DNA from: an uncultured Aquabacterium sp. | Lineage (GTDB): Bacteria > Pseudomonadota > Gammaproteobacteria > Burkholderiales > Burkholderiaceae_C | Length of the DNA: 11,630 bases | Direction: 5' to 3' | Assembly: GCA_937923225.1 (NCBI GenBank) | Contig: CALAKR010000029.1 | Coordinates: 1-11,630 of the forward strand | Part shown: in pieces, positions 1 to 9,500 of the stretch | Numbering within the stretch: position 1 is the stretch's first letter | Layout of the letters: every line of letters starts with the position of its first letter | Notes under the pieces: model-generated | Databases searched by the model: none | Seen by the model: only the letters and a program-made list of their open reading frames with translations | What the model was told of the DNA's origin: nothing | Made by a program: the position numbers and the translations under genes

Positions 1-361
1 CCCGCAGCACCACGCGCAACGCAGCCAGTTGGCCCGCGGTGCCCGCACCCACGGCCCCTTCGGCCACGCGAACCTTGATGCGCTGGAAGATCTCTCCGGC
101 CAGGAACTCGGTGGTGGTGTTGCGACCCTTGAACACAGGCAGTTCATCAAGGTTCTGGTAGTTGAACTCGGCCAGCACATCGCGCAGCAGCTCCAATGCC
201 AGGCCGATGTCGCACACCAAGCCGTTGTCATCGAGTTGAGGCCGACGGAACTCGATCTCCACACCATAGGTGGCGCCATGCACCTTCTGGGCAGGCCCGA
301 AGACCTCTCCGCGGAAACTGTGGGCGATCATGAAGTGGTCCGAAACGGCAAGGCTGTACAT
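1..361 (-). CDS. Divergent 6-pyruvoyl-tetrahydropterin synthase/QueD-fold protein (partial, C-terminus off window)
   Basis: The first 120 residues are visible; the gene starts at ATG 361 and runs off the left edge. The fold is recognisable as the COG0720 T-fold family: an N-terminal AHS (His14), then a VHGATY segment (residues 27-32), a VCDIG strand (49-53), NLDE (70-73) and TTTEF (82-86). In QueD and PTPS enzymes three histidines bind zinc (one in AAH, two in HGH). Here His14 and His28 remain, but the second histidine of HGH is Ala30. The catalytic Asp-His pair (LDHH in QueD) reads LDE, and no cysteine sits just before HGA. The active site is therefore not that of a standard QueD, and the reaction is unknown. 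It follows the dehydrogenase gene by 13 nt, with AGAAGAG upstream as a possible ribosome site, so it is part of the ribA-led operon. A second, more normal QueD is encoded at 9129-9500, which argues that this copy does something else. Family assignment is fairly sure; function is not. Confidence 0.85.
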   Translation of the reverse strand, partial: MYSLAVSDHFMIAHSFRGEVFGPAQKVHGATYGVEIEFRRPQLDDNGLVCDIGLALELLRDVLAEFNYQNLDELPVFKGRNTTTEFLAGEIFQRIKVRVAEGAVGAGTAGQLAALRVVLR

Positions 362-374
362 GGGTAGGCTCTTC

Positions 375-1373
375 TCAGTTGTAGTCAATGACGTGGCAAA
401 GCTCGGCGCCGGGGGATTCCACCAGACGCGGCAAGGTGTGGGGCAGATGCTCGAAGCGGCTCTCGCCCGTGAGGAAGTGGTCGAACACAGGATCGGCCAG
501 CAGATCCAGGGCCAGGGCCAGGCGGCGCTGATAGGTCCAGCGGGCGCGCTGGGCCGTGGCCACCGCACCAACCTGGGATGAGCGCAGGTTTAAGCGCTTG
601 GCGTGGAAAGCCTCGCCCAGGGGCACGCTGACAGGGCGATCGCCGTACCAGCTCATCTCCAGCACCGTGGCTTCGAAACCGGCGATGCGCAAGGCGGTGG
701 CCAGGCCCTCGGGGTGGCCGCTCGCATGGATGACCAGGTCAGCATCCGGCGACGCATCAGCAGGTAGCGCAAAGCGGCATCCCAGTCGTGCGGCCAAGTC
801 AGCGCGCGCGGGGTGGGTGTCGATCAGCTCGACCGATGTGCCAGGCACACGGGCCGCCAGCGCGGCCACCAGGCCGCCGACCACGCCAGCACCGACCACG
901 GCGATGCGGTCGCCCAGACGCGGTGCGGCATCCCACAGGCCATTGACGGCGGTCTCCATGTTGGCGGCCAGCACGGCGCGTGCGTCGGGCACGGCATCCG
1001 GCAACAAGGTGACGGCATCCACCGGCACGATGTAGAGGTCCTGGTGCGGGTGCAGGCAGAACACGCGCTGGCCCAGCAAATGGGCCGGGCCCGCCTCCAC
1101 ACGGCCGACAGAGGCATAGCCGTACTTCACCGGGCCGGGGAAATCGCCCTCCTGAAAGGGGCAGCGCATGGCCTGCCATTGGCTGGCTGGCACCCCACCG
1201 CGAAACACCAGGCTTTCCGTGCCGCGGCTGATGCCGCTGCGCAAGGCCTTGACCAGCACTTCACCCGGAGCGGGTTCGCGCAGCGTCGTGCTGCGGATCT
1301 CGCCATGGCCAGGAGACACCACCCAGAATGCATGTCCGTCCAATCGAGCATTGGAACGATGCGGCTCACTCAT
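375..1373 (-). CDS. Medium-chain (zinc-type) alcohol dehydrogenase-like oxidoreductase without canonical zinc cysteine
   Basis: A 332-residue protein of the medium-chain dehydrogenase/reductase superfamily. The N-terminal GroES-like part carries SGISRGTE (46-53), where classical zinc alcohol dehydrogenases have a Cys-Gly-x-Cys-Gly-type motif; the catalytic zinc cysteine is serine. A YGYASVGRV segment (84-92) and FCLHPHQ (105-111) follow. A Rossmann motif GAGVVG (161-166) with an acidic LIDT at the end of the next strand (about 184-187) suggests NAD(H) binding. The cysteine lobe for the structural zinc is absent. BchC-like dehydrogenases share the SRGTE signature as I remember it, but I cannot assign a substrate. 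ATG 1373 gives an 8-nt overlap (ATGAGTGA) with the stop of the reductase gene upstream; an in-frame GTG at 1382 would add three residues and is the alternative. Translational coupling with the RibD-like reductase and the PTPS-fold gene implies a shared pathway, perhaps oxidising a side-chain hydroxyl of a pterin or pyrimidine intermediate. Confidence 0.85.
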   Translation of the reverse strand: MSEPHRSNARLDGHAFWVVSPGHGEIRSTTLREPAPGEVLVKALRSGISRGTESLVFRGGVPASQWQAMRCPFQEGDFPGPVKYGYASVGRVEAGPAHLLGQRVFCLHPHQDLYIVPVDAVTLLPDAVPDARAVLAANMETAVNGLWDAAPRLGDRIAVVGAGVVGGLVAALAARVPGTSVELIDTHPARADLAARLGCRFALPADASPDADLVIHASGHPEGLATALRIAGFEATVLEMSWYGDRPVSVPLGEAFHAKRLNLRSSQVGAVATAQRARWTYQRRLALALDLLADPVFDHFLTGESRFEHLPHTLPRLVESPGAELCHVIDYN

Positions 1374-2181
1374 GGAAGGCACACTCGATCATGGTGTCAT
1401 CGCCCAGCAGGAAGCGGCGCGTGCGCGGGCGCAGGCTGTGGGCCAGATCGTGGATCTCCGGCAGCACCAGGCTGGGCCGGCCGGAGCCGATGATCACCGG
1501 GGCCACGGTGATCTGCAGGCGATCGAGCGCGCCCGCCGCCAGGAAGCGCGACACGGTGATGCCGCCGCCCTCCACGAACAGCCAGTGCAGGCCACGCAGG
1601 GCCAGGACACGACGGATCTCGAACGGATCCAGGCCATGCTCACCGCGTGAAATGGGAATCACCTCGGCCTGCCCGCACCGTGGCTCACGGCCCATGCGGT
1701 CTGCAGCGACCAGCAGCAGTGTGGGCGCCTTGCCATCAGTGAACACCTTCTGGCTGCCATCGAGCCGCCGCTCAGGGTCCAGGATCACCCGGGTGGGGTG
1801 CTCGCCCGCGCACAGGCGCACGGTGAGCTGCGGGTCGTCATGCTGCACGGTGCTGGCGCCCACCAGCACGGCATCGGCGATGGCGCGCATGCGGTGGGTG
1901 TGCAGCAGGTCTTCATCACCACTCAACCAGCGCGACACGCCGCAGGTGGTGGCGATGCGCCCGTCCAGGCTCTGCGCCAGGTGGCCCACCACGTAGGTAC
2001 TGCCGCGTCGGCGCATGGCGCACAGAGGGCCGTACAAGGCATGCAGCAGCGATTCGCCATCCAGGAAGGGCACGCCACCTTCCCCCGGGGCGCCCTGACG
2101 GAGCAAGGCCTGCCAGGCCGGATCTTCGCCATGCAGCGCGACCGTGCCGGGCGGGCTCAGCAGCTCGGTGGCGGCCGTCAT
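1366..2181 (-). CDS. Stand-alone RibD C-terminal-type pyrimidine reductase
   Basis: A 271-residue protein with the dihydrofolate-reductase-like RibD C-terminal fold. Signatures are GHLAQSLDGRIAT (66-78), RAIADAVLVGAST (99-111) followed by HDDPQLTVR (114-122), PTRVILDP (129-136), FVEGGG (202-207) and a C-terminal VAPVIIGSG (226-234). In bifunctional RibD this domain reduces the ribose of the aminopyrimidine phosphate to ribityl with NADPH. The N-terminal ~60 residues contain neither the HAE nor the PCxxxC zinc motif of the RibD deaminase, so only the reductase is present. Stand-alone reductases that act before deamination are known in fungi (Rib7) and archaea; by analogy this enzyme could act directly on the RibA product, which is inference. 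Its start at 2181 overlaps the stop of the glucosyltransferase gene by 4 nt (ATGA), and its own stop overlaps the dehydrogenase start. It could also be a RibD-like reductase with a different nitrogen-heterocycle substrate. Confidence 0.85.
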   Translation of the reverse strand: MTAATELLSPPGTVALHGEDPAWQALLRQGAPGEGGVPFLDGESLLHALYGPLCAMRRRGSTYVVGHLAQSLDGRIATTCGVSRWLSGDEDLLHTHRMRAIADAVLVGASTVQHDDPQLTVRLCAGEHPTRVILDPERRLDGSQKVFTDGKAPTLLLVAADRMGREPRCGQAEVIPISRGEHGLDPFEIRRVLALRGLHWLFVEGGGITVSRFLAAGALDRLQITVAPVIIGSGRPSLVLPEIHDLAHSLRPRTRRFLLGDDTMIECAFHE

Positions 2182-3995
2182 TCTGCACGGCCCCCCGCCG
2201 CTACTGCAGCGCCAGCTGTAACGGCAGCTTGCGTGAGTTCGCTCTGGCCGAAGGGGGTGAACAGCACGGCGTACTCCGGCTTGTGCGGCAGCCGAGCCTC
2301 TTCAGGGATACGGCACAGGCGGCTTTCGGTCAACCAGCGGCCCAGGCGCGGATCAGCCGTGACCACCGCCAGCGGGATCGAGGCGCTCAAGCCCACCACA
2401 AAAGGCAGCCACAGCCAGAACGTGGCGGGGAACACCTGCCAGAAGGCCAGGCCCAGCACAAGGCCCAGTGTGGTGTGCAGCCATAGGCGGCGCGATGCAT
2501 CCGCCCATGACAAACCCACCGCATCACGCTGCTGCGCCGCCCAGCCGATCTGCCGCCCGAAGGGCAGCCCCAGCATGAACAAGGTGATGGACACCGCCAC
2601 GATGGGCGCCATCAGCACGGAGAACACCAGCTCCATCAGGGCACTGATCAGTACGCGCCCGGTGCCGCCGTACTCACTGCGCAACTCGGGGCGCAGCAGC
2701 ACGTCGCCCAGGGTAGCGAACTTCGGTGCGAAACACATGGTCATCGTGGTCGCGAAGAGCACTTGGAACAGTGTGATGTCCACCGGCAGATCACGCAGCA
2801 GGCCCAGGGCAATCATGCCCAGCCAGGCTGGCGCGCCCACGTACATCGCGATGGCCAGCCACAGCTGTGCACGGCTCACGGGCAGCAGGCCGGGCATGCG
2901 CAGCAGCTTGAGATACTGCAGGTTGCCCTGGCACCAGCGCAGGTCGCGGCGGATGAACTCGGGCATGGTGGGCGGGTTCTCTTCCCAGCTGCCGTCTTCT
3001 TCAGGCAGCACGCGAACCTCGTAGCCGGCGCGGCGCATCAGCACGGCTTCGAGCTGGTCATGGCTGAGCACGTGGCCGCTCAAGGGGCCCTTGCCCGGCA
3101 ACAGCGGCAGGTGGCAATGCTCGATGAAGGGTGCCAGACGGATGATGGCGTTGTGCCCCCAGTAGGGACCGCAATCGCCCTGCCAGCTGGCCGCACCCAG
3201 CGTGTATGAGCGCATGCCCAGGCGCATGCCGAACTGGAAGATGCGCGCGAAGGGACTGGTGCTGGGCAGGCCCGTCACCAGGGTCTGCAGAATGCCGATC
3301 TGCGGCTGCGCCTGCATGATGCGCACCAGGCGCAGCATGGCGGCCGATGTCATCACGCTGTCGGCATCGAGCACGAGGGCGAAGCGGTGCTGGCTGCCCC
3401 AGCGATCGCAGAAATCACGGATGTTGCCGGCCTTGTACCCTTCGTGCGTTTCGCGCCGGCGGTAGGTGATCTTCAGTTGGCTGCCAAAGCGGTCGGTGAG
3501 CCGGGCGGCCACCAGCCTCTCGCCGTGGATGATCTCGGTGTCATCGCTGTCGCTCAGCATGTACAGGTGGAACCACGGCGCGTGGCCGGAGCGCTGCAGG
3601 CCTTCGAGCATGAAGCCCAGGTTGCGCTCCAGGCGCTCGGTGTCTTCATGGCGGATGCACACCAGCAACGCGGTGGACTGTGTGATCGGCTCGGTGCCGG
3701 TGATGCTGCGCAGGTGCGGCGCCACCTCGGCGGCGGCATCCCGCGAGAAGTGCATCAGCCAGAAGCCGATCACGGCATTCCAGAAGCCGATGGTGGTCCA
3801 CGGCAGCGTGATGGCGAACAGCAGCATGATGCCGATGCCCAGGGTATCGACGCCGCCGTCGAACAAGGCCCCGCCCATCAGCGCCATCAGCGCCAGCGAG
3901 GTGGTGATGACCAAAGTGAGGAACACCTGGCGACGACGGCGCAAGGTGGCTTGGGCAGCCACCGAGGCCGCCATGTGTTGAAACGCGCTCAGCAT
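2178..3995 (-). CDS. OpgH/MdoH-type membrane glucosyltransferase (GT2 family)
   Basis: A 605-residue inner-membrane glycosyltransferase. Two or three N-terminal membrane segments (about 24-43, 50-82) precede a cytoplasmic GT2 domain. Further hydrophobic segments lie at about 377-400, 405-425, 446-478 and 506-546. The GT domain has the UDP-sugar aspartates in SDSDD (148-152) and LDAD (209-212), the family hallmark WGHNAIIR (279-286), the catalytic-type SHDQLEA (311-317), ENPPT (339-343) and the R-x-x-R-W acceptor motif RRDLRW (349-354). These closely match OpgH, which polymerises glucose from UDP-glucose into osmoregulated periplasmic glucans. E. coli OpgH is about 847 residues, so this is a short form lacking most of the long N-terminal cytoplasmic region. 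OpgH normally pairs with OpgG; no opgG is visible here. The gene instead starts 11 nt after ribA and overlaps the reductase by 4 nt. It may glycosylate or export a product of this pathway, or simply be an OPG synthase co-transcribed with unrelated genes. Confidence 0.85.
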   Translation of the reverse strand: MLSAFQHMAASVAAQATLRRRRQVFLTLVITTSLALMALMGGALFDGGVDTLGIGIMLLFAITLPWTTIGFWNAVIGFWLMHFSRDAAAEVAPHLRSITGTEPITQSTALLVCIRHEDTERLERNLGFMLEGLQRSGHAPWFHLYMLSDSDDTEIIHGERLVAARLTDRFGSQLKITYRRRETHEGYKAGNIRDFCDRWGSQHRFALVLDADSVMTSAAMLRLVRIMQAQPQIGILQTLVTGLPSTSPFARIFQFGMRLGMRSYTLGAASWQGDCGPYWGHNAIIRLAPFIEHCHLPLLPGKGPLSGHVLSHDQLEAVLMRRAGYEVRVLPEEDGSWEENPPTMPEFIRRDLRWCQGNLQYLKLLRMPGLLPVSRAQLWLAIAMYVGAPAWLGMIALGLLRDLPVDITLFQVLFATTMTMCFAPKFATLGDVLLRPELRSEYGGTGRVLISALMELVFSVLMAPIVAVSITLFMLGLPFGRQIGWAAQQRDAVGLSWADASRRLWLHTTLGLVLGLAFWQVFPATFWLWLPFVVGLSASIPLAVVTADPRLGRWLTESRLCRIPEEARLPHKPEYAVLFTPFGQSELTQAAVTAGAAVAAGGRAE

Positions 3996-4006
3996 GCCGA
4001 CTGCCC

Positions 4007-4657
4007 TTACTCGCTGATGGCCATGGATTGGGGCAAGGCGTGGCCCATGCGGGTGCGCTTGGCTTCGAAGTAGCCCACCGAATGCTGGTTGGGCACGGTG
4101 ATGACGGGCCGGCGCTTGTCGACCTTCACGCCCAGGGCTGCCAGCTTGGCCACCTTGTCGGGGTTGTTGGTCATCAGGCTGATGCTGGGCACGCCGAAGT
4201 GGGCCAGCATCTCGGGCACGACCTCGTAGGAGCGGGCGTCATCAGGCAAGCCCAGCATGCGGTTGGCGTCCACGGTGTCGTAGCCGCGTGATTGCAGGTG
4301 GTAGGCGCGGATCTTGTTGGTCAGGCCGATGCCGCGGCCTTCCTGGCGCAGGTAGAGGATGATGCCGGCGCCCATGCGCACGATCTCGGCCATGGCCTTG
4401 TCGAGTTGGTCGCCGCAATCGCATTTGAGCGAGCGGAACACCTCGCCGGTGATGCACTCGGAGTGCACCCGCACCGGCAGGCCGGTCTGGCCGATCACAT
4501 CACCATGCACCAGCGCCACGTGCTCGCGGAAACCTTCCGTGCCGTCACGGCTGGTGGTGCGAAACACGTGCATGGAGAACAAGCCATGCTCGGTGGGTAA
4601 ATCAGAAGACGCCAGCCATTGGGAATGACGGGAGGACAACGCGGTGGGACTGGACAT
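4007..4657 (-). CDS. ribA: GTP cyclohydrolase II
   Basis: A 216-residue stand-alone GTP cyclohydrolase II, the length of the free-standing family (E. coli RibA 196). It opens GTP to 2,5-diamino-6-ribosylamino-pyrimidinone 5'-phosphate, formate and pyrophosphate. Zinc ligands are Cys68 (HSECITGE), Cys79 and Cys81 (CDCG). The nucleotide-site motifs RQEGRGIGL (104-112) and NKIRAY (114-119) are intact, as are GYDTVDAN (125-132) and TNNPDK (163-168). Tyr102, equivalent to E. coli Tyr105, is retained. Replacement of that residue by Met is known to give a formamido product instead, so normal GCH II chemistry is expected. ATG 4657 has AGGA about 11 nt upstream. It is the first gene of the minus-strand operon and opens a pathway rather than completing riboflavin synthesis. 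No RibB domain is fused, and no FMN riboswitch is recognisable upstream. Whether the genome also has a ribBA fusion for riboflavin cannot be seen here. Confidence 0.95.
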   Translation of the reverse strand: MSSPTALSSRHSQWLASSDLPTEHGLFSMHVFRTTSRDGTEGFREHVALVHGDVIGQTGLPVRVHSECITGEVFRSLKCDCGDQLDKAMAEIVRMGAGIILYLRQEGRGIGLTNKIRAYHLQSRGYDTVDANRMLGLPDDARSYEVVPEMLAHFGVPSISLMTNNPDKVAKLAALGVKVDKRRPVITVPNQHSVGYFEAKRTRMGHALPQSMAISE

Positions 4658-5156: not shown

Positions 5157-5657
5157 ATGAGCACGCCCAAAACCCTGCTGATCGTCTACCACTCCCAGAC
5201 CGGCGGCACCCACCAGATGGCGCGCGCCGCGCGGGACGGCGCACTGGCCGAGGAAGGCGTGTCGGTGCGCCTGCTGCATGCTACCGAGGCAAAGGCCGAT
5301 GACGTGCTGGCCGCCGACGGGCTGGTGTTCGCCACCCCGGAGAACCTGGCCGCCATCAGCGGGCAACTCAAGGACTTCTTCGACCGCAGCTACTACGCGG
5401 TGCTGGACCACATCAACGGCCGCCCCTATGCAGCGCTGATATGTGCCGGCAGCGACGGGCACAACGCCGCGCGCCAGATCGAGCGCATCGCCACCGGCTG
5501 GCGGCTCAAGCCCGTGGCCGAGCCCTTGATCGTCTGCACGCACGCGCAAACGCCCGAAGCCATCCTGGCCCCCAAGCAGATCGGGGAGGATGATCTGGAG
5601 CGCTGCCGGGCTCTGGGCGAATCGCTGGCGGCGGGGCTGGTGCTGGGCGTGTTCTAA
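5157..5657 (+). CDS. Flavodoxin-fold NAD(P)H/FMN oxidoreductase family protein
   Basis: A 166-residue single-domain protein. LLIVYHSQTGGTHQMA (7-22) is the flavodoxin phosphate-binding loop, with SQTGGT at 13-18 cradling the FMN phosphate. LVFATPENLAAISGQL (56-71) followed by KDFFDR (72-77) matches the flavin-ring loop and following helix of WrbA/NADPH-dependent FMN reductase relatives. A final strand IVCTHAQ is near residue 122. It probably binds FMN and carries or accepts electrons; the partner is unknown. ATG 5157 is chosen because the flavodoxin fold begins there; upstream in-frame ATGs at 5046 and 5070 would add a tail without family character. It is divergent from the ribA operon, so the two may share control. 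A flavin-binding protein beside a GTP cyclohydrolase II gene may be functional or chance. Its stop lies 5 nt from the stop of the convergent small gene. Confidence 0.85.
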   Translation: MSTPKTLLIVYHSQTGGTHQMARAARDGALAEEGVSVRLLHATEAKADDVLAADGLVFATPENLAAISGQLKDFFDRSYYAVLDHINGRPYAALICAGSDGHNAARQIERIATGWRLKPVAEPLIVCTHAQTPEAILAPKQIGEDDLERCRALGESLAAGLVLGVF

Positions 5658-5989: not shown

Positions 5990-7036
5990 TCAAGCGTCCG
6001 CTACCGAAGCCAAGGCCTGGAAGGTCAACACCTCGGCATCCCCCTGCCCGCCCCCAACGACGGTGGTGCAAATGGCCTGCAGCGCGCCCTCCTGCCACAG
6101 CCCGAAGGCGCTCGCGTTGTACCCGGGGCCGCCACCGTTGTGACCGCGTACGAAGCCTATCGGCATCCCAGGGTCGATCATCAGGCCCAGGCCGTAGCCA
6201 GGCTGCTGCCAACGGCCGCCGACCTGCCCTGCCGGCATGGCATCGACCATGGCGGCCAAACTGGCGGGCTGAAGCAGGCGCCCCGAGAACAAGGCGTGCA
6301 GGAAGGCGCTCACCTCGGACGTGGTCGAGACGATGACGCCGTGCGATACCCAGCCGGGGTGATAACGCCCCCGCACATCCACCCAGGCATTCCCTTCGGC
6401 GATCTGGCGCGACAGGCCCGGCGCCAGCGGGCGCAGATCATCGAGCGTGGACGCCACCGTGGTGCGTGACAAACCCAAGGGCCCGCACACACGCTCTGCG
6501 AGTTGATGTTGCCAGGGGCTCTCGCCCACCATCTCCAGCAGCTGGCGCAGCACCATGTAGCCTGGGTTGCTGTAGGCGAAGCGGGCGGGCTCGGGCACCG
6601 TCCAGTCACGCGCCAGCGTGGCCTGAGTGAAGTGCTCGGTGGACCAGGGCTGGTCAGGGTGCTGGCGAACCTGGGCCTGATAGTCAGGCAGCGCACCGTA
6701 ATCGGGCAGGCCAGCCGTGTGGTTCAACAGGCGGCGCGGCGTGACCGCATCGGTGAAGGACGCTGGCAAGGCCGGGCCACGCCAGATGCTGCGAACAGGC
6801 GCATCCAACTCCAGCTTGCCCGCATCGGCCAGTTGCAGCAGCAGGCAGGCGATGAAGGTCTTGGTGATGCTGTAGATCAGGAAAGCCGGCTCCTGCTGCG
6901 TTGCGGCCTGGGGCGTGGTCCAGCGCGTGACGCTGCCTTGCGGCGTCCACACGCTCAGGGCGGCGGCGATGCCTTCTGCACGCGGCGCATCGAGCAGGCC
7001 ATCGATCTTCTGGATGAGGGCGTCGGCCGCAGGCAT
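5990..7036 (-). CDS. Beta-lactamase-fold (class C-related) serine hydrolase
   Basis: A 348-residue penicillin-binding-protein/class C beta-lactamase-family hydrolase. The nucleophile motif SITK gives Ser56 and Lys59, YSN gives Tyr155 and Asn157, and HNGG (299-302) takes the place of the third KTG-type box. HTAGLPDY (106-113) is the usual conserved loop. There is no signal peptide, so it is cytoplasmic, unlike true AmpC enzymes and periplasmic PBPs; this fits family VIII carboxylesterases or peptidases better than an antibiotic-resistance enzyme. ATG 7036 lies 8 nt after the bioD stop; an in-frame TTG at 7048, overlapping that stop as TTGA, would add four residues. Neither start has a strong ribosome site, so translation may depend on coupling to bioD. 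Its place at the end of bioA-bioD raises the possibility of an esterase role in biotin or pimelate metabolism, but substrate is unknown. Confidence 0.9.
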   Translation of the reverse strand: MPAADALIQKIDGLLDAPRAEGIAAALSVWTPQGSVTRWTTPQAATQQEPAFLIYSITKTFIACLLLQLADAGKLELDAPVRSIWRGPALPASFTDAVTPRRLLNHTAGLPDYGALPDYQAQVRQHPDQPWSTEHFTQATLARDWTVPEPARFAYSNPGYMVLRQLLEMVGESPWQHQLAERVCGPLGLSRTTVASTLDDLRPLAPGLSRQIAEGNAWVDVRGRYHPGWVSHGVIVSTTSEVSAFLHALFSGRLLQPASLAAMVDAMPAGQVGGRWQQPGYGLGLMIDPGMPIGFVRGHNGGGPGYNASAFGLWQEGALQAICTTVVGGGQGDAEVLTFQALASVADA

Positions 7037-7044
7037 CGGCAGGC

Positions 7045-7740
7045 TCAAGGCAAGGTGAGCGACTGCGCCAGTTGCGCCGGATCGGCCGCGGGATCCCAGC
7101 CCCAGTGGGCCAGCATCGGCGCCTGCAGGTGATCCCGCAGGGTGCGCAAATTGGCCTCCTGCTCCGGCATGGCGGCATCCACCACATTGGCCACCCAGCC
7201 TGCCAAGGTCAGGCCACGCGAGACGATGCTCTCCTGCGTGAGCAGCGCATGGTTCAGGCAGCCGAGGCGCAGGCCCACCACCATGATCACGGGCAGGCGC
7301 AGACGCTGGGCCAGGTCGGCGCTGGAGGCGAACTCACCAGGGCCTTCATGCAAAGGCACGATGAAGCCGCCCGCGCCTTCCACCACCACCGCATCGGCAT
7401 GCTGGCTGAGCGCATGGAAGCTCGCCTCGATGTGGCCGATGTCGATCACCGCGCCGGCATTGCGCGCGGCGATGTGCGGCGAGATGGCATCGGGCAAGGC
7501 ATACGGGTTGTCGAAGGCCGGCGGCACCTTCAGGCTGGAGGCAGCGCGCAGTGCGGCCACATCTTCATTGAGCCACTGGCCGGGGTGGCCATCGACGCCC
7601 TCGATCCAGTCGCAGCCGGCGGCCACGGGCTTCATGCCCACCACACGCTGATGATCGCGGCGCAGCGCATGGATCAGGGCGCAGCTGGTGCGGGTCTTGC
7701 CGACGCCGGTGTCGGTGCCGGTGACGAAGTAGGCGGTCAT
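7045..7740 (-). CDS. bioD: Dethiobiotin synthetase
   Basis: A 231-residue ATP-dependent enzyme closing the ureido ring of 7,8-diaminopelargonate with CO2 to give dethiobiotin, the penultimate step of biotin synthesis. The P-loop GTDTGVGKT occupies residues 8-16 (Lys15). Lys37 in MKPVAAG matches the substrate carbamate lysine of the E. coli enzyme, and VEGAGG (120-125) is the conserved second loop. Length is normal (E. coli 225). Its ATG overlaps the bioA stop by 4 nt (ATGA), so the two are translationally coupled and act in sequence. It is followed by the serine hydrolase. No odd features. Confidence 0.96.
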   Translation of the reverse strand: MTAYFVTGTDTGVGKTRTSCALIHALRRDHQRVVGMKPVAAGCDWIEGVDGHPGQWLNEDVAALRAASSLKVPPAFDNPYALPDAISPHIAARNAGAVIDIGHIEASFHALSQHADAVVVEGAGGFIVPLHEGPGEFASSADLAQRLRLPVIMVVGLRLGCLNHALLTQESIVSRGLTLAGWVANVVDAAMPEQEANLRTLRDHLQAPMLAHWGWDPAADPAQLAQSLTLP

Positions 7741-9128: not shown

Positions 9129-9500
9129 TCAGGCCGTGGGCCGGTAGACGCAACGATCCCCCGCCGCGCGGGACACGCTCACCGCCGCCACCTGGGGCAG
9201 CTGCAGGTGCACCTGCGCGTAGATGAACACGCACAGGTTCTCCAGCGTGGGCGCGCCCAGGCCGGACACTTCATCCAGGAAATGATGATCGAGCTGCTCA
9301 CGCACGCTGGCAATCACGGCGCGCAGATGGGCCAGGTCCACCACCATGCCGGACTCGGGCTGGCGCTCGCCGCGCACCATCACCTCGGCCGTGTAGGTGT
9401 GGCCGTGGATGCGGCGGCTGCCGGCGGCCTCCTCGGCGCCCACCTGGCGTTTGAGCGTGTGGGCGGCATCGAAGGAAAAGGTCTGGCTCAGTTCGAACAT
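9129..9500 (-). CDS. queD: 6-carboxy-5,6,7,8-tetrahydropterin synthase, variant active site
   Basis: A 123-residue QueD, the normal length (E. coli 121), which in queuosine/preQ0 synthesis turns dihydroneopterin triphosphate into 6-carboxytetrahydropterin. Zinc ligands are intact: His14 in DAAH and His32/His34 in IHGHTY. The Asp71-His72 pair (LDHH) and the PTLEN helix start (84-88) are present. Two differences from E. coli QueD, compared from memory: the catalytic cysteine of CxxxHGH is Ser28 (SRRIHGH), and the late-strand glutamate that anchors the pterin aligns with Arg111 (SVSRAAG). It lies 19 nt downstream of queE and 18 nt upstream of bioA; its own ribosome site is weak. Adjacency to queE supports a queuosine role, so the substitutions are more likely a subfamily trait than inactivation. 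Confidence 0.93.
   Translation of the reverse strand: MFELSQTFSFDAAHTLKRQVGAEEAAGSRRIHGHTYTAEVMVRGERQPESGMVVDLAHLRAVIASVREQLDHHFLDEVSGLGAPTLENLCVFIYAQVHLQLPQVAAVSVSRAAGDRCVYRPTA

Follow-up and report, generated by a model that had tools for sequence, protein, structure and literature searches.

What could be made by a group of genes that sets a GTP cyclohydrolase II beside a membrane glucosyltransferase, a reductase, a dehydrogenase and a PTPS-fold protein with an altered active site? The question is raised by an 11,630-nucleotide stretch from an uncultured Aquabacterium sp. (hereafter the window), which is a whole contig (C29 of genome G000; CALAKR010000029.1) of a genome that is 54% complete and in 505 contigs. 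We lean towards reading these genes as the OpgH-type version of a widespread pathway, which would make a small molecule from GTP and supply it to the cell envelope. They form a single minus-strand operon, ended by the contig edge, with the following members.

4007..4657, minus strand: RibA-type GTP cyclohydrolase II (GTP_cyclohydro2, 5.5e-60; TIGR00505, 224 bits for a cut-off of 205.85)
2178..3995, minus strand: OpgH-like membrane glucosyltransferase, belonging to a clade of its own that is tied to the cluster (MdoH models, up to 2e-214)
1366..2181, minus strand: stand-alone RibD_C reductase without a deaminase domain (RibD_C, PF01872, 1.7e-35)
375..1382, minus strand, start at 1373 or 1382: medium-chain dehydrogenase, BchC-like (ADH_zinc_N, 3.6e-05, below the Pfam cut-off)
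1..361, minus strand: PTPS-fold (T-fold) protein of the SCO6650 family (PTPS, PF01242, 2e-20), C-terminus lost at the contig end

On the DNA, a gap of 11 nt separates the RibA and OpgH genes, the OpgH and RibD_C genes overlap by 4 nt, and 13 nt lie between the dehydrogenase and PTPS genes; the RibD_C and dehydrogenase genes overlap by 8 nt if the latter starts at the ATG at 1373, and by 17 nt if it starts at the GTG at 1382. An earlier note on this DNA had described one co-oriented five-gene operon with tight spacing, and with the start at 1373 its overlaps and gaps are correct and its families matched. It had also expected the operon to run on beyond the left edge, which agrees with what we found: the PTPS gene ends at the contig edge with 120 aa readable, and a 4,310-bp contig of the same metagenome-assembled genome (MAG), C361, carries a GT4 glycosyltransferase gene, its N-terminus cut at the contig end and its product 61% identical to the GT4 of Zoogloea locus L018, followed by a methyltransferase gene. 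Because relatives have this gene order, we infer that the two contigs adjoin, and C361 is likely the continuation of the window operon.

The cluster was mapped with purpose-built profile hidden Markov models in 123 loci, made up of the window, 7 family loci, 80 contig-scan loci and 35 loci from order and phylum genome samples; the first 88 formed one set and the last 35 a second, and L043 and L162 are one genome counted twice. The contig scan with the dehydrogenase gave at least 595 stretches with 587 relatives, and the best 80 of the 587, chosen by similarity to the query, were kept; these include Zoogloea, Thauera, Variovorax, Halomonas, Thiocapsa, Streptomyces, Micromonospora and others, the cluster spanning Proteobacteria and Actinobacteria. 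Counting its own genome each time, the dehydrogenase was present in 8 of 150 family, 10 of 300 order and 27 of 398 phylum genomes. In 117 of the 123 loci a PTPS gene follows the dehydrogenase gene on its strand at a distance of at most 1 kb; a GT4 gene lies within 2 kb in 109 and a methyltransferase gene within 3.5 kb in 106, and anywhere in the locus RibD_C is found in 89, RibA in 56 and a creatininase-family gene in 45. The core unit is dehydrogenase-PTPS-GT4-methyltransferase, usually with RibD_C, and not the five genes that the earlier note had taken as the unit; the core genes do stay together across relatives and RibA does not, so that the refuting condition named in that note, a lack of neighbourhood in related genomes, fails for the core and holds for RibA. 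The unbroken order RibA-OpgH-RibD_C-dehydrogenase-PTPS-GT4-methyltransferase occurs in two Zoogloea records, L018 and L020. Six loci have the dehydrogenase without PTPS (L030, L042, L047, L053, L054 and L093, the contig of the last ending after the dehydrogenase gene), and the first five may represent a second use of the enzyme. As a separate observation, L042, L053 and L054 carry a CDP-alcohol transferase with a sulfatase-like gene, and L030 a cluster-type OpgH with FkbM. Searches of the open-access literature aimed at the cluster and its members found no description of the cluster, the module exchange discussed below, the OpgH variant or the product, and the cluster is a real, conserved and apparently uncharacterised pathway.

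The clearest regularity among these loci concerns the membrane enzyme. Three or more of PTPS, GT4, methyltransferase and RibD_C stand beside the dehydrogenase in 111 loci. Of these, 72 have a CDP-alcohol phosphatidyltransferase, 24 a cluster-type OpgH and 6 an acyltransferase, so that 101 of the 111 have at least one of these modules and 100 of the 101 have exactly one. The OpgH-like glucosyltransferase, which had been taken as a constant part of the system, is one of three exchangeable membrane modules. Exclusion between OpgH and the CDP-alcohol transferase is significant by locus (Fisher p 2e-12) and over 73 groups formed at 80% dehydrogenase identity (8e-8); it was first seen in the 88 loci, and the 35 later ones agree (14 OpgH-type, 13 CDP-alcohol-type, 0 with both). 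In 9 of those 35 the OpgH gene is divergent and stands just before the dehydrogenase gene, the slot that the CDP-alcohol transferase gene takes in others. Moreover, the flippase-like LPG_synthase_TM family is present in 51 loci, all with a CDP-alcohol transferase and none with a cluster-type OpgH. We read the three membrane enzymes as different means to one end, by which the product would be moved at the membrane or anchored there.

Could the window nevertheless be a locus for osmoregulated periplasmic glucans (OPGs), whose OpgH homologue makes ordinary glucan and whose GTP-related genes are incidental or modify it? The window protein passes two NCBIfam MdoH cut-offs (NF003958, 545 over 419; NF003962, 474 over 328), its best-scoring MdoH model, NF003963, giving 714, below a cut-off of 884, and the DADS and RRDLRWCQGN-type motifs are common to cluster and canonical OpgH. 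Five Halomonas loci (L044, L051, L074, L081, L092) have a CDP-alcohol-type cluster near a canonical OpgH; at L044 this is an opgGH pair, and its adjacency to the cluster speaks for the glucan explanation. Against it, 26 cluster-type and 12 canonical OpgH rows are split in the tree by a 100/100 branch. Cluster-type proteins are 44-70% identical to the window protein, and canonical ones 33-38% (30% in one 127-aa fragment). The canonical rows were labelled as such by their low identity to the window, and for 6 of them OpgG status is known, all 6 being from genomes with OpgG and 4 adjoining it. OpgG (PF04349) is absent from 17 of 23 genomes with a cluster-type OpgH, a set that includes the 54% complete genome of the window, several MAGs, some incomplete genomes and one genome counted twice; none lies beside OpgH in the window. 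Thiocapsa has both OpgH types at separate places, and the core synteny persists in loci without any OpgH. We rejected OPG housekeeping on the absence of OpgG in most genomes tested and the separate OpgH clade, and consider the version with passenger genes very unlikely.

A second explanation is that RibA and RibD_C boost flavin supply, the other genes serving to glycosylate or export a flavin. Both are riboflavin-type enzymes. The closest solved relatives of the RibD_C protein are phosphoribosylaminopyrimidine reductases (6p8c, 3.9e-24; 2b3z; 2azn); in the window protein the RibD_C match starts at residue 63 of 271, and TIGR00227 scores 127.9 for a cut-off of 150.15. Against the flavin explanation, flavin synthesis has no need of the constant partner, a PTPS-fold protein, and the riboflavin genes are elsewhere. 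The earlier note's observation that ribH, ribE and ribB are missing is true for the window; the genome carries ribH on C153, together with a ribD piece and a second GTP cyclohydrolase II domain (a 384-aa frame), and RibH was found elsewhere in 14 of 14 genomes and a bifunctional RibD over its cut-off in 11 of 14. One RibH query against the 123 loci found none and recovered the genome's own ribH as a control, and two RibD deaminase queries against the same loci gave no strong match, the weak ones (E 4e-07) being in L027 and L041, both of the acyltransferase type, at distances of about 4 kb and 1 kb from the mapped genes. RibE and RibB were not among the identified window genes, no search of other loci having been made for them. 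A riboflavin operon was thus rejected because the riboflavin genes are located elsewhere, and extra flavin supply or flavin secretion is the explanation to which we give least credence. Since there are only two weak deaminase matches and no RibH, a ring that keeps its 2-amino group is the simplest expectation.

RibA is optional in the cluster, being present in 3 of 15 collinear OpgH-type loci. The window copy, one of two GTP cyclohydrolase II matches in this incomplete genome, has the canonical Glu53 and Tyr105 (E. coli numbering). Across 56 cluster RibA domains, from related genomes that are not independent, both canonical residues are kept in 8, with a creatininase-family gene in 0 of the 8 loci; Met or His stands at 105 in 24, with a creatininase-family gene in all 24; and Ala or Ser stands at 53 with Tyr105 kept in the other 24, with a creatininase-family gene in 16. 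An exact rule linking any altered RibA to the creatininase fails in 8 of 56 and was rejected as such; it is exact for changes at Tyr105 and for canonical RibA. A Streptomyces RibA with Met at 105 reportedly stops at the formyl compound (Spoonamore and others, 2006). In S. meliloti the formyl group is taken off the GTP cyclohydrolase intermediate by BrbF, which belongs to the creatininase family (PMC9478397). Family searches of the window genes identified no creatininase-family gene, and since the window RibA is canonical, a deformylase would not be needed there.

The constant partner of the dehydrogenase, the PTPS-fold protein, is altered at its active site. With residues numbered after E. coli QueD and 117 cluster proteins aligned, the metal-site residues H16 and H31 are invariant (117 of 117), Ala replaces H33 in 116 (HGA for HGH) and C27 likewise in 116, D70 survives in 3 and H71 in none, and E110 is kept in all 114 proteins that reach that position. 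This pattern bears out the altered active site proposed from the window copy. That copy has the HGAT and MIAHSF motifs, and its Glu110 position is beyond the contig end. PDB entry 3d7j, S. coelicolor SCO6650, named as uncharacterised, matches a cluster PTPS over its full length (E 1.4e-51) and shares the motif MIAHSFRG...FGPAQRLHGAT, and SCO6650 therefore belongs to the same family. Its structure paper is said to report no zinc, no PTPS activity and a retained pterin-type pocket. Judged by its sequences the cluster PTPS is a distinct family, to which we attach no count, since a protein search with one member gave at least 8,000 relatives that may include ordinary PTPS or QueD. The impression of the earlier note that the combination matches no named pathway stands in that we found no description of the cluster, whereas the PTPS family is partly on record through 3d7j. 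The window also encodes a QueD (9129-9500, minus strand), which adjoins QueE in an ordinary queuosine context and scores under the QueD cut-off; it keeps H33, D70 and H71, and the alignment shows Ser for Cys27 and Arg for Glu110, so that Glu110 alone is not decisive for the substrate.

These residues matter for a third alternative, a pterin route with another order of steps, in which RibA, alone or together with the deformylase, would yield the diaminopyrimidine, the PTPS-fold protein would carry out an Amadori-type rearrangement and ring closure, and RibD_C would reduce the dihydropterin, with tailoring and envelope delivery as in the reading that we prefer. GTP cyclohydrolase I and PTPS have a common T-fold, which favours this route, and GTP cyclohydrolase I does rearrangement and closure in one enzyme; RibD_C has the dihydrofolate reductase fold. 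Further points for it are the Glu110 kept in 114 of 114 readable cluster PTPS proteins and the RibD contact positions that are not conserved in cluster RibD_C. On the other side, 58 RibD_C members keep the motifs QSlDG, HR.RA, DdP.Lt.R and EGGG, and the Arg of HR.RA, the Arg of DDPxLTxR and the Glu of EGG are what we take to be the phosphoribosyl-chain contacts of B. subtilis RibD; the relationship to phosphoribosylaminopyrimidine reductases points the same way. We regard the pterin route as rather unlikely.

Our best reading remains that the product would be a GTP-derived 2-amino-pyrimidine or pterin glycoconjugate at the envelope, possibly redox-active. Gene content, order, conservation, module exchange and active-site changes are observed, and each of the following reactions, as well as the product, is what we infer. 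As expected from its family, RibA would convert GTP to 2,5-diamino-6-ribosylamino-4-pyrimidinone 5'-phosphate, the creatininase-type enzyme taking off the formyl group in relatives with an altered RibA. The stand-alone RibD_C, which retains substrate residues, would turn the ribosyl into a ribityl chain, and the 2-amino group would stay, because no deaminase is tied to the cluster. At the weakest step, the PTPS-fold protein, its PTPS metal and proton-relay residues lost and its pterin-anchoring Glu kept, may bind the ring and help to close or modify it. The dehydrogenase, methyltransferase and GT4 glycosyltransferase would then tailor the ring compound. Delivery to the envelope would use the CDP-alcohol phosphatidyltransferase in most loci, often with the flippase-like protein, and the acyltransferase in a few, while for the window operon the OpgH-like synthase would be the one to attach glucose and carry the product across the membrane. 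The glycosylated or exported pyrimidine or pterin suggested by the earlier note fits the neighbours as regards glycosylation and an envelope destination, the product itself being as conjectural as in our scheme.

The best NCBIfam match of the dehydrogenase is BchC (1.3e-17, far under the cut-off), its profile finds in the PDB mostly polyol or alcohol dehydrogenases, all weakly (best 1.4e-09), and its catalytic zinc ligands are not recognisable, the positions that we take to be theirs reading SGISRGTE and KYGY. A fold search with the methyltransferase returned the methyltransferase fold only (best E 2e-11, TM 0.53).

Several points weigh against the pathway that we prefer. Three of the enzymes, the dehydrogenase, the methyltransferase and GT4, are of kinds too general to point to particular substrates. 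RibD_C was not found in 34 of the 123 loci, 17 of them Streptomyces, and in the 12 of 15 collinear OpgH-type loci that lack RibA a GTP origin rests on RibD_C and the PTPS fold. Positions matched to Ser167, Trp169 and Lys151 of B. subtilis RibD, presumably correctly assigned and presumably contacts, are not conserved among the 58 members, and the argument from Glu110 to a 2-amino ring is weakened by the window QueD. A creatininase is missing in 8 of the 24 cases in which RibA keeps Tyr105 and carries Ala or Ser at 53, and two more distant BrbF relatives, from M. extorquens and O. anthropi, failed to replace BrbF (PMC9478397). Regarding the exchange of modules, OpgH and the CDP-alcohol transferase occur together in L037, and none of the three is present in 10 of the 111 loci, L159 and L160 of these being short pieces. 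Finally, the 80 contig-scan loci were selected by similarity to the query, and some loci are cut by contig ends.

Genes that accompany one module and not the others may hint at what the product does. Cytochrome b561 is found in 17 of 26 OpgH-type loci (6 of 12 in the first set and 11 of 14 in the second; e.g. L024:5770-6282), in 1 of 79 CDP-alcohol-type, 0 of 6 acyltransferase-type and 1 of 12 other loci. Of the 123 loci 24 have YceI, and 22 of these 24 belong to the CDP-alcohol type. A protein that looks secreted, about 310 aa long, with conserved FWR and YGSSF motifs and a signal-like N-terminus, is encoded in 13 of the 26 OpgH-type loci, the examples being

L021:7706-8650, L158:11930-12868 and L188:13659-14672: secreted-looking protein, with 10 further OpgH-type loci

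and outside that type only in L159, a 4.9-kb contig; it has no Pfam or NCBIfam match, and a fold search was null (best E 0.025; model pLDDT 77). Neither this gene nor cytochrome b561 adjoins the window operon. A cytochrome b561 on C271 of the same genome was considered as a missing operon piece and rejected, as it belongs to an ordinary-looking YceI-b561 pair outside the cluster. We can imagine, as a doubtful extension, that the product represents a new class of redox molecule bound to the envelope. It would be a reduced pterin or ribityl-diaminopyrimidine, glycosylated and held on phospholipid, an acyl chain or a glucan, and would carry electrons or quench radicals at the membrane, b561 recharging it in the OpgH type and the YceI lipocalin ferrying it in the CDP-alcohol type. 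The sole basis for this idea is the role of b561 and YceI in Burkholderia, where LcoA (b561) and BcnA (YceI) jointly limit lipid peroxidation (PMC9113575).

Other genes were noted around the cluster. A large protein with weak sulfatase similarity is encoded in 29 of the 123 loci (L012, L013, L017 and others), often beside YceI and a CDP-alcohol transferase, and three small neighbour families are present in 10-12 loci each: an ABC transporter ATPase, a beta-lactamase-fold hydrolase, and one without a Pfam match that overlaps the methyltransferase gene on the opposite strand. Elsewhere in the window, a flavodoxin or NADPH-dependent FMN reductase-like gene (5157-5657, plus strand) is divergent from RibA, and a serine hydrolase gene of the Pfam beta-lactamase family (5990-7048, minus strand) adjoins bioD and bioA, its product being as likely an ordinary esterase or peptidase as a lactamase.

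The dehydrogenase is found in about 7% of sampled Pseudomonadota (27 of 398) and in many Streptomyces, in clusters whose genes are named as queuosine, riboflavin and glucan enzymes. If the proposed pathway is true, these would make an unrecognised metabolite joining GTP chemistry to the cell envelope, a function would be gained for a PTPS family whose structure is filed as uncharacterised, and spare GTP cyclohydrolase II copies may be accounted for. The one-of-three exchange of membrane enzymes gives a sharp prediction on where the product is located and how it is anchored.

How does the cluster compare with known systems? The window PTPS is of the same family as SCO6650 of S. coelicolor, which to our knowledge has been described as a single protein only. 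Like QueD and PTPS, the cluster proteins have this fold, belong to the same Pfam family and retain Glu110 and two of the three histidines of the metal site; they differ in having Ala for the third His and for Cys27 in 116 of 117 each and in the loss of His71 in all and of Asp70 in all but 3. The OpgGH (MdoGH) system is alike in its membrane GT2 synthase with DADS and RRDLRWCQGN-type motifs, whereas the window OpgH stands apart by its separate clade, the 33-38% identity, the absence of OpgG in 17 of 23 genomes and its linkage to the GTP cluster. The start of riboflavin synthesis (RibA, RibD) and the BrbF formamidase of Sinorhizobium meliloti (PMC9478397) have in common with the cluster GTP cyclohydrolase II, RibD_C and, in relatives, a creatininase beside an altered RibA. 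Unlike these, the cluster has no tied deaminase or RibH, and PTPS-fold and envelope enzymes follow; the window, moreover, differs from the BrbF system in its canonical RibA and in having no creatininase identified. The two families of LcoA and BcnA recur here, YceI mostly in the CDP-alcohol type and b561 in the OpgH type, and while the carrier proposed for those two is ubiquinone (PMC9113575), in the cluster it would hypothetically be a GTP-derived molecule.

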